Part shown: positions 14,242 to 25,146 of the stretch, one piece after another | Layout of the letters: each line of letters begins with the position of its first letter | Numbering within the stretch: position 1 is the stretch's first letter | Made by a program: the position numbers and the translations under genes | Source of the DNA: a virus | Virus record (IMG/VR): IMGVR_UViG_3300035703_000369 | Location: 1 to 27,207 of that record | Reading direction: 5' to 3' (one strand) | DNA: 27,207 nt | The notes under the pieces: model-generated | The model's input: the letters and a program-made list of their open reading frames with translations, nothing else | The model's database searches: none | What the model was told of the DNA's origin: nothing

Positions 14242-14732
14242 TTGCCGATCGCTTCGATCAGTCCGCGGACCGGGTTGTCCTGCGCGAGCTGCGGGAGTTC
14301 CTGGCGCGTCTCGGCGACGTCGGCGAGTTGGTCGTAGTGCGACGCGAATCGCTTCTCGAGAAACGGGAGCGCATCGACGCTCGACCAGGCGATGATCTTC
14401 CATCCGCCGAGCGCCTGGACGGCGCGCTCGACTTCGGGAACGGCGGGCCCGGCGTGATAGGCGCCCGAGCGAACGTGCTGTAGCGCGATGGCCCACGCCT
14501 CGCCTGGTGTCATGCGCTGCGCTTTGCGGAGCTGCTGAAAATGCCAGGGGTTCGGGAAGTATTCCTCGTGGAGCATCAGGTGTTGTGCTGCCGCGCGAAA
14601 CTCCTCGATCGACCAGGTGCTCATCGCCGCGTACCAGAGCTCGAGCGCCTCCGGCGTGATCTTTCCGCCGGGTTTCATCTCGGCGAGCGAGACCAGGATG
14701 CGCGCCATTTCGGCCCGATCACCCGGCTGCAC
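14238..14732 (-). CDS. Putative replicative helicase loader (lambda P position, G39P-like)
   Basis: 164 residues from GTG at 14732, preceded by GGAGAAGG and overlapping the DUF1376 gene by 14 bases; an internal ATG at 14708 is possible but has no ribosome site. The N-terminal half has a helix-rich pattern: A-R-I-L-V-S-L-A-E-M-K-P, L-E-L-W-Y-A-A-M-S-T-W-S-I-E-E-F-R-A-A-A-Q-H-L, E-Y-F-P-N-P-W-H-F-Q-Q-L. The Trp, the paired Ala helix and the later Pro resemble the N-terminal domain of helicase loader/inhibitor proteins such as SPP1 G39P. It directly follows a DUF1376 replication gene, the position of P in lambda. The function is inferred from this pattern and place. Confidence 0.6.
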   Translation of the reverse strand: MQPGDRAEMARILVSLAEMKPGGKITPEALELWYAAMSTWSIEEFRAAAQHLMLHEEYFPNPWHFQQLRKAQRMTPGEAWAIALQHVRSGAYHAGPAVPEVERAVQALGGWKIIAWSSVDALPFLEKRFASHYDQLADVAETRQELPQLAQDNPVRGLIEAIGK

Positions 14733-15537
14733 TTGCCTTCTCCAGCCACGCCTGGGCTGCTGCGAGATTCGTGTCCTGGGCGCGCTTCGCCTTCGTCGGC
14801 GGGATCGGCCAGGGTTGCGACCAGGGACGATCGGAATCGCCGAAGAATCTCGCCGGGTTCAAGACCATCCGGTTCGTCGCCTGGACGTGAGCAGCGTATC
14901 GCTCGACGCCTTCGCGCAGATTCTCCCAGGACGCCCCGAGCTCGAGGTGCCTGCGGATGTGGTGCTCTGCCGTGATCCAGTCCGTGCGGCCTGCGTGTGG
15001 CGGGTATGCGCTCTTGATCGCGTCGAGGTGCTGCCGTTCTTCGCCTTCGGCGCGCGCGATTTTTGCCACCTCAAGCGAAGAGATTACGCATGAGGAGTTA
15101 GATGTCGTTGGAGATATAGTCTGGTGTCTGGAGTCTGGAGTCTGGATAGGTTGATCGTTCGTTGAACGATTCGTAGCACGAGTCGTGCTCGGCTCGTTGC
15201 CCTGTCGGTCCGCTCTTCGTCGCGCTTCTCGTTGCTCGGCGATGCGTCGATTCGTCTCTCGCTGCTCGTCCGCCTTCGCGATTTCGCGCTGGGCTCTCGA
15301 GTTAGTCCACCCACCCTCGCCCTGCTCCCAGAATTCCTCGAGGACGCGCTTCACGGCGTCTCGGTCGAGCTTCGAGACTGCGCCGACGATGCGACAGAGC
15401 TGCGTCATGTCGGACGGGAGCGGGCGCTCGGTCGCGTAGTGATGATCGAGGAGCGACCTGTATGCGCCGCGCTCGGTCAGCGAGAGGTGCCCGGTGTCAC
15501 GTTGAAAGTCGCCGATGTAGTGCTTGTAGAAGTTCAC
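14719..15537 (-). CDS. Replication protein with DUF1376 (YdaU-like) domain
   Basis: 272 residues from GTG at 15537, forming a GTGA overlap with the stop of the Cro-like gene. The N-terminal 85 residues (F-Y-K-H-Y-I-G-D-F-Q-R-D-T, L-T-E-R-G-A-Y-R-S-L-L-D-H-H-Y) are a clear DUF1376 winged-helix domain, found in lambdoid replication initiators. A charged, Arg/Gln-rich linker (about 85-155) is probably disordered. The C-terminal part (W-I-T-A-E-H-H-I-R-R-H-L, V-L-N-P-A-R-F-F) resembles domains that contact helicase or loader. It would bind the phage origin and recruit the loader encoded next. In lambda the origin lies inside O; the linker-coding region here (15050-15300) is the obvious place to look, but I see no clear set of iterons. 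Confidence 0.85.
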   Translation of the reverse strand: MNFYKHYIGDFQRDTGHLSLTERGAYRSLLDHHYATERPLPSDMTQLCRIVGAVSKLDRDAVKRVLEEFWEQGEGGWTNSRAQREIAKADEQRETNRRIAEQREARRRADRQGNEPSTTRATNRSTNDQPIQTPDSRHQTISPTTSNSSCVISSLEVAKIARAEGEERQHLDAIKSAYPPHAGRTDWITAEHHIRRHLELGASWENLREGVERYAAHVQATNRMVLNPARFFGDSDRPWSQPWPIPPTKAKRAQDTNLAAAQAWLEKASAAG

Positions 15538-15791
15538 GCCGCCTCCCCGACCTGGTTGACGCGGCGTCTGACTCTCGAGTCGCGGATCACGCGCCAGTCG
15601 ACATCCGGTCGGAGTTCCTCGACCGTGACGATCCCGTGGCTCTCCCGCTCGATGTTGATCGCCAGCGATTCCGCGGCCTTTTTGTAGCCGTAGCTCACAT
15701 TCCGCAGATGGCCTCCCGTCGTTCCGACGCGCTCTGCGAAACGGTCGCGCTGCCGGAGGGTCATGGTTTGAAGGAACTCTTTGAGTGTCAT
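15534..15791 (-). CDS. YdaS-family Cro-like regulator
   Basis: 85 residues, ATG at 15791. It fits the YdaS family: M-T-L-K-E-F-L-Q-T-M-T-L-R-Q-R-D-R-F-A-E-R-V-G-T, then H-L-R-N-V-S-Y-G-Y-K-K and I-V-T-V-E-E-L-R-P-D-V-D-W. The helix-turn-helix spans about residues 16-45. It is the first gene of the leftward early operon and diverges from the repressor gene, the position of cro. The start codon lacks a ribosome site, and the promoter-like -10 is only about ten bases away, so the message may be nearly leaderless. It probably represses the repressor promoter and tunes early transcription. Confidence 0.85.
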   Translation of the reverse strand: MTLKEFLQTMTLRQRDRFAERVGTTGGHLRNVSYGYKKAAESLAINIERESHGIVTVEELRPDVDWRVIRDSRVRRRVNQVGEAA

Positions 15792-15801
15792 GGCGCCGGA
15801 A

Positions 15802-15829
15802 GTATTACCAAAATGGAACTATTGTTCAA
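15802..15829 (-). promoter_or_regulatory. Leftward early promoter (PR equivalent)
   Basis: On the minus strand TTGAAC (plus 15824-15829) and TAATAC (plus 15802-15807) are separated by 16 bases. The -10 is part of a GGTAATACT element also present in the rightward promoter. Predicted start near 15795, only about four bases before the Cro-like ATG. Operators overlap both elements. Confidence 0.6.
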
Positions 15830-15859
15830 TACCACACGGTAATTCACCTCGAGGTGAAT
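15804..15859. promoter_or_regulatory. Right-side operator cluster (OR equivalent, three sites)
   Basis: Three 16-bp elements share ACC-N4-GGT: 15804-15819 (ATTACC-AAAA-TGGAAC, weak right half), 15828-15843 (AATACC-ACAC-GGTAAT) and 15843-15858 (TTCACC-TCGA-GGTGAA). The last lies within a perfect 18-bp palindrome, ATTCACCTCGAGGTGAAT (15842-15859). Centre spacings are 24 and 15 bases. The same core recurs at 16561-16619. Probable binding sites for the repressor and Cro-like protein. Confidence 0.65.
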
Positions 15860-15864
15860 ATAAT
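15836..15864 (+). promoter_or_regulatory. Repressor promoter (PRM equivalent), probably leaderless
   Basis: A perfect TATAAT (15859-15864) ends six bases before the repressor ATG at 15871, so the expected transcription start falls at or next to the ATG. The -35 place (about 15836-15841, ACGGTA) is weak, as in lambda PRM. Two operator-like sites overlap the -35 place and the spacer. Confidence 0.6.
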
Positions 15865-15870
15865 GGGACA

Positions 15871-16539
15871 ATGGAGACCGTGGACATCCAGGAAACTAGA
15901 CGCGAGCGACTCCGTCGGCTCATCGAGGATGAGTACCGCGGAAATGTGTCTCGCTTTGGACAGCTCATCCAGAAGTCGCAGAGCCAACTATCGAGCACCC
16001 TGCTCGGTCGTAAGGGATTCGGCGAACGCCTGGCTCGACAGATCGAGACCGCGCTCGGTTTGTCTCCGGGTTGGTTAGATCGGCCGCTCGATGACGCGCC
16101 ATCCGACACAGATGCGCCGGAAGGCTTCGTCGCCGTGCGTCGAGTGCGGATGAAACTCTCCGCGGGCGTTATCGGCTGGGCGATCGAATGTCACGCAGAC
16201 GACGCGCCGCCCTTGTTTTTCCGGCGTGAATGGTTCGAGAGACGCGGATTCCGACCCGATCAGCTCGTTGCGTTGAAGGTTGAGGGTTCCTCGATGGAGC
16301 CCGGCCTCTACGCGGGCGACACGATAGTCGTCAACCGATCCGATACGCAGCTTGTCGACGGCGAGGTCTTCGCTGTGAGCTATGAAGGCGAGCTCGTGAT
16401 TAAGCGCCTGCGGCGCGATGCCGGTGAGTGGTTCCTAGCGTCCGATAACCCAGACAAGCGTCGCTACGGCGACAAACGATGCGCGGACGGGGTCGAGATC
16501 ATCGGCCGCGTCGTGTACAAAAACTCCGAGCACATCTAG
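15871..16539 (+). CDS. CI-type phage repressor with S24 (LexA-like) autoprotease domain
   Basis: 222 residues from ATG 15871; an upstream in-frame ATG at 15781 would run through the operators and is rejected. The N-terminal helix-turn-helix lies at about 24-70 (V-S-R-F-G-Q-L-I-Q-K-S-Q-S-Q-L-S-S-T-L-L-G). The linker is Asp/Pro-rich. The C-terminal S24 domain has a cleavable A98-G99 bond (K-L-S-A-G-V), Ser141 (V-E-G-S-S-M-E-P-G-L) and Lys178 (E-L-V-I-K-R-L). The Ser-Lys distance of 37 equals that of LexA. This predicts RecA-stimulated self-cleavage and SOS induction. It maintains lysogeny by binding the operator clusters on either side of its gene. Confidence 0.93.
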   Translation: METVDIQETRRERLRRLIEDEYRGNVSRFGQLIQKSQSQLSSTLLGRKGFGERLARQIETALGLSPGWLDRPLDDAPSDTDAPEGFVAVRRVRMKLSAGVIGWAIECHADDAPPLFFRREWFERRGFRPDQLVALKVEGSSMEPGLYAGDTIVVNRSDTQLVDGEVFAVSYEGELVIKRLRRDAGEWFLASDNPDKRRYGDKRCADGVEIIGRVVYKNSEHI

Positions 16540-16560
16540 CCAGGCTGTCCGGGCTCGGTA

Positions 16561-16619
16561 ATAACCTCCCGGTCAAGTATTACCTCGAGTTGTTGACGTA
16601 ATAAGTACCAGTCGGTAAT
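16561..16619. promoter_or_regulatory. Left-side operator cluster (OL equivalent, three sites)
   Basis: Three 16-bp elements match the cluster near 15804: 16561-16576 (ATAACC-TCCC-GGTCAA), 16579-16594 (ATTACC-TCGA-GTTGTT, weak right half) and 16604-16619 (AGTACC-AGTC-GGTAAT). Centre spacings are 18 and 25 bases. The last site covers the -10 of the rightward promoter, and the second touches its -35, so bound repressor would block transcription. Confidence 0.65.
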
Positions 16620-16621
16620 AC
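16593..16621 (+). promoter_or_regulatory. Rightward early promoter (PL equivalent)
   Basis: TTGACG (16593-16598) and TAATAC (16616-16621) are 17 bases apart, a near-consensus sigma-70 promoter. Predicted start near 16628. It would drive the recombination operon from 16666 to the recombinase gene. Its -10 sits in the same GGTAATACT word as the leftward early promoter. Confidence 0.75.
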
Positions 16622-16631
16622 TCCCCAGGAA

Positions 16632-16646
16632 GCCGCAGTTCGCGGC
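16632..16646 (+). promoter_or_regulatory. Leader hairpin of the rightward operon (boxB-sized)
   Basis: GCCGC (16632-16636), loop AGTTC, GCGGC (16642-16646): a perfect 5-bp stem with a 5-base loop about five bases after the predicted transcription start. The geometry equals a lambda-type boxB, but the loop is not GAAAA and no boxA is seen. It may simply be a 5' UTR stem. Confidence 0.4.
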
Positions 16647-16665
16647 CCCTGACTTGGGAGGTTAC

Positions 16666-16866
16666 ATGGACACAGCAATCGACGGGATCATCGCGTTTTC
16701 GGCCATTTTGGTCGTCTTCGGCGTCTTCGCCGTGTTCGGCGGGATCGTCGAGTATCTCCTCAATCTGATCGAGACGCGCCGACGTAACCGTCGCCGCCGG
16801 GAGCTTCTGCCTGGCCCGAACGTCCGCTCGCAGCGCCGCGGCCGTCAATGGCAGGTGCCGCTGTGA
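16666..16866 (+). CDS. Small membrane protein with Arg-rich C-terminal tail
   Basis: 66 residues from ATG 16666, with GGGAGG six bases upstream; first gene after the rightward promoter. Residues 6-35 form a long hydrophobic stretch (one membrane helix), followed by E-T-R-R-R-N-R-R-R-R-E-L-L and further Arg residues, so the tail would lie in the cytoplasm by the positive-inside rule. No family is recognised. Its position suggests an early host-takeover or superinfection-exclusion role. The Arg-rich stretch resembles an RNA-binding arginine-rich motif, but charge alone can explain it as a membrane anchor flank. Confidence 0.65.
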   Translation: MDTAIDGIIAFSAILVVFGVFAVFGGIVEYLLNLIETRRRNRRRRELLPGPNVRSQRRGRQWQVPL

Positions 16867-17084
16867 GCTCGGTCGAGTACATCGACCCGCGCGATACGAG
16901 AGCGGTGGCCGAGTTTGTCCGAGGGATCGAGCGTGACGCCCCGCCTCCTGTTGTCCGCATGGAGCTCGACCCGGAGGTTCCGCTCGGTGAGCTTATCCGC
17001 GCATTGAGCGCATCTGGCCTCGCGCTCTCGACGTTGCACGGCGGACGGCAGCTCATCCATCGAGCGCCGAAGGAGGCCGCATGA
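16863..17084 (+). CDS. 73-residue protein, unknown function
   Basis: GTG 16863 forms a GTGA overlap with the stop upstream and has GCAGG seven bases before it; ATG 16848 in the same frame is an alternative. The sequence is acidic then amphipathic: S-V-E-Y-I-D-P-R-D-T-R-A-V-A-E-F-V-R-G-I, P-P-V-V-R-M-E-L-D, V-P-L-G-E-L-I-R-A-L-S-A-S-G-L-A. It overlaps the YqaJ exonuclease gene by ATGA. No family recognised. Confidence 0.6.
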   Translation: MSSVEYIDPRDTRAVAEFVRGIERDAPPPVVRMELDPEVPLGELIRALSASGLALSTLHGGRQLIHRAPKEAA

Positions 17085-17692
17085 TGGAGCAGCGATCGGC
17101 GGAATGGTTTGCGGCTCGCCTCGGATGCGCGACTGCGTCGAAGTTTCGCGCGGTCGTCTCGAAGCTGAAGAGCGGCAAGCCCGCCCAGGCTCGCGTCGAC
17201 TACGCAATCGAGCTCGTGACCGAGCGCTTGAGCGGACAGCCGACTCCGCATTTCACCACCGCGGCCATGCAGCGCGGCGTCGACCTCGAGCCCGCAGCGC
17301 GTATCGAGTACGAATTTAAGAAACGAATCGAGGTGCTCGAGACGGGGTTCTTGCGTCATCCGTCGTTGATGACTGGTGCATCGCCCGACGGTCTTGTCGG
17401 TGCCGATGGTCTCATCGAGATCAAATGCCCCTCGAGCACCGTTCACGTCGAGACGTGGCTCAACGGTATGCCGGACGACCACATCGCCCAGGTGCAAGGT
17501 CAGCTCTGGATCACCGGCCGCGCCTGGTGCGACTTCGTCTCATTCGATGACCGCCTACCGAAAGAGCTCCAGCTCTACGTTCAGCGCGTCGAGCGCGACG
17601 ACGTTTTCATCGCGAACCTGGACCTCGAGGTCCGACAGTTTCTCGCCGAGGTCGACGATCTCGAGCGCCAATTAAGGGAGAAGGCTGCATGA
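17081..17692 (+). CDS. YqaJ-family viral exonuclease (lambda Exo-like)
   Basis: 203 residues, ATG at 17081 in an ATGA overlap, AGGAGG five bases upstream. Family motifs: S-A-E-W-F-A-A-R-L-G-C-A-T-A-S near the start, R-G-V-D-L-E70-P-A-A-R, T-G-A-S-P-D103-G-L-V and L-I-E113-I-K115-C-P, then Q-V-Q-G-Q-L-W-I-T-G-R. E70, D103 and E113-x-K115 form the PD-(D/E)XK site that binds two metal ions. It digests 5' strands of double-stranded ends to leave 3' tails, which the annealing protein encoded two genes downstream would pair. Together they form a Red-like recombination system. Confidence 0.92.
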   Translation: MMEQRSAEWFAARLGCATASKFRAVVSKLKSGKPAQARVDYAIELVTERLSGQPTPHFTTAAMQRGVDLEPAARIEYEFKKRIEVLETGFLRHPSLMTGASPDGLVGADGLIEIKCPSSTVHVETWLNGMPDDHIAQVQGQLWITGRAWCDFVSFDDRLPKELQLYVQRVERDDVFIANLDLEVRQFLAEVDDLERQLREKAA

Positions 17693-17907
17693 CAAGCAAA
17701 TATATGACCGTCCTCGACATCGCGACGCGCTACGGAATCAGTCAATCGACGGTGTGGCGATGGACTAACTCTGGTCGATTCCCAGCTCCGATAAAGCTCG
17801 GCGAAAAAACGACCCGTTGGTATGTCCCAGACGTGCTCGATTATGAGCGGAACATTCAAAAGGCTACTCAAAGCGATGATTCTGTTTTGCAGGAGAACGC
17901 AGCATGA
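17689..17907 (+). CDS. AlpA/Xis-like DNA-binding protein
   Basis: 72 residues in ATGA overlap with the exonuclease gene and with the next gene. It has a MerR-type winged helix: T-V-L-D-I-A-T-R-Y-G-I-S-Q-S-T-V-W-R-W-T-N-S-G-R-F-P followed by I-K-L-G and R-W-Y-V-P-D-V-L-D-Y. This is the AlpA / excisionase pattern. With a serine recombinase at the end of the same operon, it is a candidate recombination directionality factor, though large serine recombinases often use unrelated factors. It could instead be a transcription regulator. Confidence 0.8.
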   Translation: MTSKYMTVLDIATRYGISQSTVWRWTNSGRFPAPIKLGEKTTRWYVPDVLDYERNIQKATQSDDSVLQENAA

Positions 17908-18617
17908 CGAACGCAATCCAGACCGTCAGCGTGACGGACATCGAGAAGATGGCCACGGCGGTCGCGAAGTCTGGGCTCTTCGGAGTCCGTACACCCGACC
18001 AGGCAATGTCTCTGATGCTGATCGCCCAGGCCGAAGGCCTGCACCCAGCAATCGCCGCGCGCGACTATCACATCATCCAGGGTCGGCCTTCGCTGAAGAG
18101 CGACGCCCTGCTCGCTCGCTTCCAGGCGAACGGCGGGAAGATCGAGTGGATCGAATACACCGACCAGGCGGTCGCCGCCAAGGTGTCGCACCCGCAAGGC
18201 GGGACCGTCGAAATCCGCTGGACGTTCCAGATGGCCGAACGCGCCGGGCTCACGAAGAACCCGACCTGGCGTCAGTACCCGCGCCAAATGCTCCGCGCTC
18301 GCGTGATCTCCGAAGGCGTTCGCGCCGTGTTCCCTGGTGTCGCCGTCGGCGTCTACACCTCCGAAGAGGTCCAGGACATGACGATCTCGAGCTCGAGCGC
18401 GACAGTCGTCGCCCAGGAGCCGCAGCTCGCCGATCCGGTTCACCTGGTACGCGAGGCACCGGATCTCGAGACGCTGAAGACTCGCTTCCGCGATTCGGTA
18501 GTGCTCGCCAGGAAGTCAAAGGATCGCGAGCTCGAGGAGTCGCTGAACTACGCGAAGGACGCGCGCAAGGCGGAGCTCGAGGCGATCGTCGTCGAGCCGC
18601 AGGAGGTCGCAGCATGA
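17904..18617 (+). CDS. Putative single-strand annealing protein (RecT/Red-beta-like)
   Basis: 237 residues, ATG at 17904 (ATGA overlap), AGGAG eight bases upstream. The conserved core (about 20-155) reads S-G-L-F-G-V-R-T-P-D-Q-A-M-S-L-M-L-I-A-Q-A-E-G-L-H-P, D-Y-H-I-I-Q-G-R-P-S-L-K-S-D-A-L-L-A-R-F, E-R-A-G-L-T, Y-P-R-Q-M-L-R-A-R-V-I-S-E-G-V-R and Y-T-S-E-E-V-Q-D. It is a widespread phage family found beside YqaJ-type exonucleases and is often left as hypothetical. The core resembles distant RecT/Red-beta annealing proteins. The C-terminal third is acidic and helical, a likely partner-binding region. The role is inferred from synteny with the exonuclease. Confidence 0.72.
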   Translation: MTNAIQTVSVTDIEKMATAVAKSGLFGVRTPDQAMSLMLIAQAEGLHPAIAARDYHIIQGRPSLKSDALLARFQANGGKIEWIEYTDQAVAAKVSHPQGGTVEIRWTFQMAERAGLTKNPTWRQYPRQMLRARVISEGVRAVFPGVAVGVYTSEEVQDMTISSSSATVVAQEPQLADPVHLVREAPDLETLKTRFRDSVVLARKSKDRELEESLNYAKDARKAELEAIVVEPQEVAA

Positions 18618-24886: not shown

Positions 24887-25146
24887 CAGCGACGAACGAG
24901 AGCTCGGTCGAGCTTGTCTTCGATCGACTTCAGACGCTCCGTCTGGTTCGCAAGCTGCGCCTCGATGACGGCAATCCGCCGATCGGCCTCCGGCTGGATC
25001 TTCACTTGCTCGACGACGTCTATGCGTTTGGAGATGTTCTCCAGACGCTCCGTCATCTGACCGCCCCAGTACACGAGCGCGATCACGAGGGAAATATCGA
25101 CCAGGAGAGATCCCGGCGGCACCTTGAGCTTTGCTGCATCAAACAT
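24886..25146 (-). CDS. Membrane protein with C-terminal coiled coil (holin-associated?)
   Basis: 86 residues from ATG 25146, five bases after the stop of the tail gene. A hydrophobic segment at about 13-30 (S-L-L-V-D-I-S-L-V-I-A-L-V-Y-W-G) is followed by a long heptad-like helix (M-T-E-R-L-E-N-I-S-K-R-I-D-V-V-E, I-A-V-I-E-A-Q-L-A-N-Q-T-E-R-L-K-S-I-E). This topology resembles small accessory lysis proteins such as XhlA, or a second holin. It sits directly before the amidase. Function inferred from location and topology. Confidence 0.7.
   Translation of the reverse strand: MFDAAKLKVPPGSLLVDISLVIALVYWGGQMTERLENISKRIDVVEQVKIQPEADRRIAVIEAQLANQTERLKSIEDKLDRALVRR

Follow-up and report, generated by a model that had tools for sequence, protein, structure and literature searches.

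A predicted temperate-phage genetic switch with three-plus-three operators around a cI-type repressor gene

The window analysed here, a whole virus record of 27,207 bases, carries a compact immunity region of the lambda/CP-933P type, in which a cI gene, whose product has an S24 domain, stands divergent to a YdaS-like cro gene (Table 1). A megablast search with the window up to base 25,000 returned no match among annotated phages. The repressor belongs to PHROG 4 (repressor, 2e-38), and its S24 domain was recognized by Pfam at 1.1e-20. The AlphaFold model of the protein (mean pLDDT 83) has HTH helices at residues 26-33 and 37-45, and its C-terminal domain gave fold matches to the C-terminal domains of lambda CI and LexA. 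Among the S24 features, Ser141 and Lys178 are invariant in the relatives compared and Ala98-Gly99 is kept in group A (groups are defined below), and thus damage-induced self-cleavage would be expected. The repressors of group B (L014, L015 and L017) have Gly-Gly at the positions of Ala98-Gly99, the predicted self-cleavage site, and their induction may differ from that of the window phage. The cro product matches Pfam YdaS (PF15943) at 1.1e-6, with 28.8 bits just under the curated cut-off of 30, and matches the solved phage Cro 8co2/8c7k at 4-5e-6 by phmmer; a text search for the PDB codes 7NKV, 8C3K, 8C7K and 8CO2 gave nothing relevant. Directly after cro lies a gene of the DUF1376/primosomal type, and to the right of cI follow genes for a YqaJ exonuclease (17081), RecT (17904) and a serine integrase (20342). 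The first gene of the PL operon (16654-16866) encodes a well-conserved product of ∼66 aa, hydrophobic in its N-terminal half and very rich in arginine in its tail. Just past PL there is a hairpin, GCCGC-AGTTC-GCGGC (16632-16646), which is kept in relatives with a variable loop, and its version in L015 has a compensated stem pair (CCCGC...GCGGG).

Table 1. Genes, promoters and predicted operator sites of the immunity region, in window positions
Feature	Position	Strand	Placement	Basis or state
cro-like (YdaS-type) repressor gene, 85 aa	15534..15791	-		Pfam YdaS, phmmer
PR, leftward early promoter	15802..15829	-		read from sequence
S1	15804..15819		over PR -10	left arm TACC good, right arm TGGA; matrix rank 8
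S2, AATACCACACGGTAAT	15828..15843		touches PR -35	exact core; matrix rank 1
S3, TTCACCTCGAGGTGAA	15843..15858		abuts cI -10	exact core; matrix rank 3
PRM -10 TATAAT (putative)	15859..15864	+		read from sequence
cI-type repressor gene (HTH and S24), 222 aa	15871..16539	+		Pfam, PHROG, model and fold matches
S4, ATAACCTCCCGGTCAA	16561..16576		accessory (putative), nearest cI end	exact core; matrix rank 6
S5	16579..16594		touches PL -35	matrix rank 4
PL, rightward early promoter	16593..16621	+		read from sequence; conserved in relatives
S6, AGTACCAGTCGGTAAT	16604..16619		over PL -10	exact core; matrix rank 2

PR consists of TTGAAC (15829-15824) and TAATAC (15807-15802) separated by a 16-nt spacer, and PL of TTGACG and TAATAC with a spacer of 17 nt. 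A strict consensus promoter scan returned PL only, placed one base off, and PR was absent from its output; relatives have a -35/-10-like pair at the place that matches PR. The -10 elements of both promoters are covered by GGTAATACT, as the preliminary description of this DNA had noticed, and, counting both orientations, the window contains this word three times (15801, 16576 and 16614) where 0.03 occurrences are expected. Because the TATAAT of PRM is only 6 nt ahead of the cI start codon, the cI mRNA is probably leaderless; leaderless mRNA has been reported for lambda cI and paaR2 (PMC8630535). The cro ATG lies 10 nt past the PR -10 in the window and 6-7 nt past it in L208 and L209, so near that the cro mRNA, too, seems to have little or no leader. 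In that case neither of the divergent transcripts, cI and cro, would have one.

The preliminary description had proposed a core of ACC-N4-GGT at six sites, three on each side of cI. This core is exact at S2, S3, S4 and S6, whereas S1 (ATTACC-AAAA-TGGAAC, that is ACC-AAAA-TGG) and S5 (ATTACC-TCGA-GTTGTT, that is ACC-TCGA-GTT) have one good arm each. What it had said of the geometry was reproduced: the spacings are exactly 24 and 15 bp in the upstream cluster and 18 and 25 bp in the downstream one, S3 lies inside a perfect 18-bp palindrome (ATTCACCTCGAGGTGAAT, 15842-15859), and the early promoters have S1 and S6 over their -10 elements and S2 and S5 touching their -35 elements. The lambda counterpart of the 15-bp spacing between S2 and S3 is wider. 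The sites at the promoters thus form pairs of a -10 and a -35 site 24-25 bp apart, S1/S2 at PR and S6/S5 at PL, and the third site of each cluster (S3 and S4) sits cI-ward of the promoter pair. Since more distant relatives have arrays of 3+2 or 2+2 sites, this third site appears to be accessory.

For comparison, relatives with repressors 67-88% identical were taken from viral contigs, and nine of them, some nearly identical to each other, were compared in detail. CI relatives under ∼50% identity mostly share the S24 domain only and have other operators, and were therefore left out of motif building. In all nine further records the six positions occur in the same order, with spacings from S1 to S6 of 24, 15, 717-754, 18 and 25 bp; in group B the first of these is 25 bp and the fourth 19-20 bp. 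The sequences fall into group A, comprising the window, L005, L006, L009, L010, L012 and L016, and group B, comprising L014, L015 and L017. S1 is complete in L009 and in all of group B, S5 has one good arm in group A and is a full site in group B, and the left arm of S2 is degenerate in L009 only. The AACC arm of S4 is invariant in group A, and the site itself is weak in the window. Group A has TACC/GGTA at the left arm of S1, at S2, at the left arm of S5 and at S6, with exceptions in L009 (left arm of S2) and L012 (left arm of S5); group B has CACC at the left arm of S1 and CACC/GGTG at S2, S3, S5 and S6. The change from TACC in one group to CACC in the other thus spans four sites (S1, S2, S5 and S6), and the arms of S3 are CACC/GGTG in 10 of 10 sequences of both groups. 

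The two proteins differ between the groups as well. The CI recognition helix, whose predicted position follows from the modelled helices, reads SQSQLS[SG]TL in group A and SQPQIADM[LV] in group B, and the likely start of the Cro recognition helix, placed from homologues, reads TTGGHLRN and TSAGHLRN, respectively. Between the window and L015, DNA identity is 60% in the N-terminal part of cI and 63-66% in cro, compared with 78% in the C-terminal part of cI and 89% in YqaJ/RecT; the divergence of A and B is concentrated in the DNA-reading parts. The preliminary description had expected a distinct immunity specificity, and the comparison argues for it, with sites and recognition helices switching together. 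Within group A, L010 is 95-100% identical to the window (14722-18617) in the neighbouring sequence and only 64% (N-terminal) and 77% (C-terminal) identical in cI, and it retains most operator arms; this suggests that cI was replaced by exchange inside a single operator class.

Searching with the aligned Cro sequences led to phages with Cro proteins 31-75% identical, and in several of these phages the repressor is short and lacks an S24 domain. A matrix trained on the three group-B loci found 49 matches of at least 10 bits in 12 further loci, ten from viral contigs and two from cultured phages; shuffled sequence gave ∼0.23 per locus. A pair or triplet ∼20-65 bp upstream of cro, together with a second pair at the other promoter whose members are 23-26 bp apart, accounts for most of the matches, and the arrays are of the 3+2 type in L208-L210 and of the 2+2 type in L212 and L214. 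The three-plus-three operator system of the preliminary description was thus upheld, since its positions and spacings are kept in relatives and the matrix transfers to loci outside the training set. In L208 (PQSQIADML) and L210 (SQPQIADTL) the CI helices resemble those of group B, and the sites of these two phages are mostly CACC/GGTG. Judging by these distant phages, which represent few lineages, the code was probably CACC first, with TACC derived from it. Burkholderia phage BgVeeders33 (L222), L211 and L215 have sites at both promoters and no cI between them, and a cI profile gave no match in the records of L211 and L215; possibly these three are derived phages that lost the repressor. Prophages that share the S24 domain have palindromes of other kinds, with TAGC-N4-GCTA-like triplets beside cI in L024, L037, L038 and L052 and TTGAACC-N2-GGTTCAA-like sites flanking cI on both sides in L035, and these could form the basis for a catalogue of repressor/operator codes.

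We consider 15534-16625 to be a temperate-phage genetic switch, or immunity region, in which CI and a competing Cro would act on two-fold symmetric 16-bp operators, and put the probability of this reading, made from sequence, at about 0.88. CI dimers and competing Cro dimers would bind the 16-bp operator, which in group A is mainly NNTACC-N4-GGTANN. CI on S1/S2 at PR and on S6/S5 at PL would shut both lytic operons. The pair with 24-25 bp spacing persists in distant phages and is likely a cooperative unit. S3 abuts the cI -10, and its occupation by Cro or by CI in excess would switch cI off; the YdaS-type Cro of CP-933P goes to PRM first (PMC8630535). S4 would add to the strength of the PL cluster, and DNA damage would lead through S24 self-cleavage to induction of the phage. 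A loop between the clusters may form, S1 being 800 bp from S6 in the window; the S1-S6 distances are 799/800, 811 and 836-839 bp, with no common helical register, and thus no claim is made for loop phasing. Activation of cI by CI at S2 in the manner of lambda is doubtful, because S2 is near the -35 of the cI promoter and only 15 bp from S3.

The sites could instead be chiefly Cro operators, with CI binding only some of them or binding elsewhere. The motif tracks Cro even where the repressor has no S24 domain, it persists in L211, L215 and BgVeeders33 with no cI between the promoters, and most arms are kept in L010, where Cro is nearly identical to that of the window and cI is strongly diverged. 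However, the TACC and CACC groups are set apart by the CI recognition helix too, which in the latter resembles the helix of other CACC phages, and in the related switch of CP-933P overlapping sites are covered by PaaR2 as well as by YdaS (PMC8630535). We thus regard a mainly Cro-directed array as improbable and retain the switch read by both proteins.

It is more improbable still that S1 and S6 resemble each other only through a shared good -10 word, and that S4 and S5 are chance matches. GGTAATACT indeed contains the -10 at both PR and PL, and neither S4 nor S5 is a perfect site in the window. But site arms are conserved outside the promoter hexamers too: in non-promoter columns of group A, mean identity was 0.90 for site arms, 0.62 for N4 centres and 0.67 between sites, and none of 20,000 column permutations was as extreme. 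The script masked the hexamers of the PR -35, the PL -10 and the PRM -10 one base off, with small effect. Moreover, relatives have full sites at S1 and S5, and in group B the arms of S1, S5 and S6 also become CACC/GGTG, so that the -10-word reading is already disfavoured.

The bare ACC-N4-GGT core occurs 13 times in the window against 3.6 ± 1.9 expected. Because it is over-represented window-wide, the bare core cannot carry the operator claim, and scoring by it was rejected as unspecific. We therefore used a symmetric matrix of 16 positions built from four group-A relatives with the window left out; the same anchors served to place the sites in the relatives, and thus the test is independent of the bases of the window and not of the chosen positions. 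The six sites took ranks 1, 2, 3, 4, 6 and 8 of all positions in the window, and at the score of the weakest one 0.57 matches are expected per 27 kb of shuffled sequence. The preliminary description had also asked how dense such sites are elsewhere in the genome: the relatives' matrix puts all six sites within its first eight positions, and 9 of the 13 bare cores lie outside the array. In the viral collection the combined pattern of PL and S6 occurs in 11 contigs only, all of which also have this repressor; a broader pattern, GGTRATTCACCNNNNGGTG, searched in viral contigs, was set aside as evidence. That the array is a functionless chance cluster of a common short core, as the excess of bare cores might suggest, is refuted in practice by the extended matrix, the positional conservation and the transfer to unused loci.

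Returning to the switch read by CI and Cro, we propose that the base next to ACC, T in the window and C in the sister group, would set which repressor alleles fit, and groups A and B are therefore predicted to be heteroimmune. The phage thus probably has its own private immunity, in which the type of switch is known and the address code is new. As there are only two close groups, the joint change of sites and helices may have been one evolutionary event. A further reading, which we hold tentatively and rate a little short of evens, is that the immunity code moved by one bp per half-site (CACC to TACC) at four operators with matched CI and Cro helices, leaving S3 at the older code and Paraburkholderia phage IPK mixed, and that this is a stepwise record of a new specificity arising where two competing repressors read one switch. 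The idea that S3 is the Cro site because it is the sole non-switching site was rejected as a general rule, since the odd site of IPK is S2. The repressor-operator pair is new, and the switches of the sister groups differ at one operator bp and at a few residues in the helices. It has long been asked how a new immunity group can come about while a switch of two proteins and six sites keeps working, and these natural variants make the question testable.

No description of this operator class was found in the literature searched, coverage of which was incomplete. Betaproteobacterial prophages (for example L024, L035, L037 and L052) share the S24 domain family and palindromes beside cI, but their HTH is unrelated or diverged and their operators are others, such as TAGC-N4-GCTA. 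Burkholderia phage BgVeeders33 (OK665841) has a related Cro and arrays of the same operator class at both promoters, but no cI between them and mixed AACC/CACC arms, and its annotation names no repressor in that stretch. IPK (PV588664) also has a related Cro and arrays of the same class at both promoters, with TACC sites at S1, S3, S5 and S6 and CACC at S2, but its repressor is longer (up to 368 aa when translated from the first ATG); the IPK paper makes no mention of operators or repressor. As cultured Burkholderia-group phages carry related arrays, a laboratory system exists. Lambda OR/OL shares the 3+3 operators at two early promoters and a CI with an HTH and a self-cleaving S24-type domain, and differs in its operator sequence and in its Cro, which here is of the YdaS type. 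The lambda clusters are ∼2.3 kb apart (PMC5880393), compared with 0.8 kb here with cI alone between them. Because of the YdaS-type Cro, CP-933P (PaaR2/YdaS/YdaT) appears closer than lambda in layout. In CP-933P, as here, genes for a CI analogue and a YdaS-type Cro diverge from a stretch that contains operators, and three more operators lie at PL beyond the repressor operon; its repressor mRNA is leaderless (PMC8630535), and that of the window phage probably is too. It differs in its operator half-site consensus, GTTTAGTAA (PMC8630535), in the toxin-antitoxin pair that follows its repressor, where here cI stands alone between the clusters, and in the YdaT/CII analogue that follows YdaS, where here the DUF1376 primosomal-type gene follows cro. 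From lambda and CP-933P the present switch differs in its operator sequence, in the cI gene alone between clusters within 0.8 kb and in the 15-bp spacing of S2 and S3.
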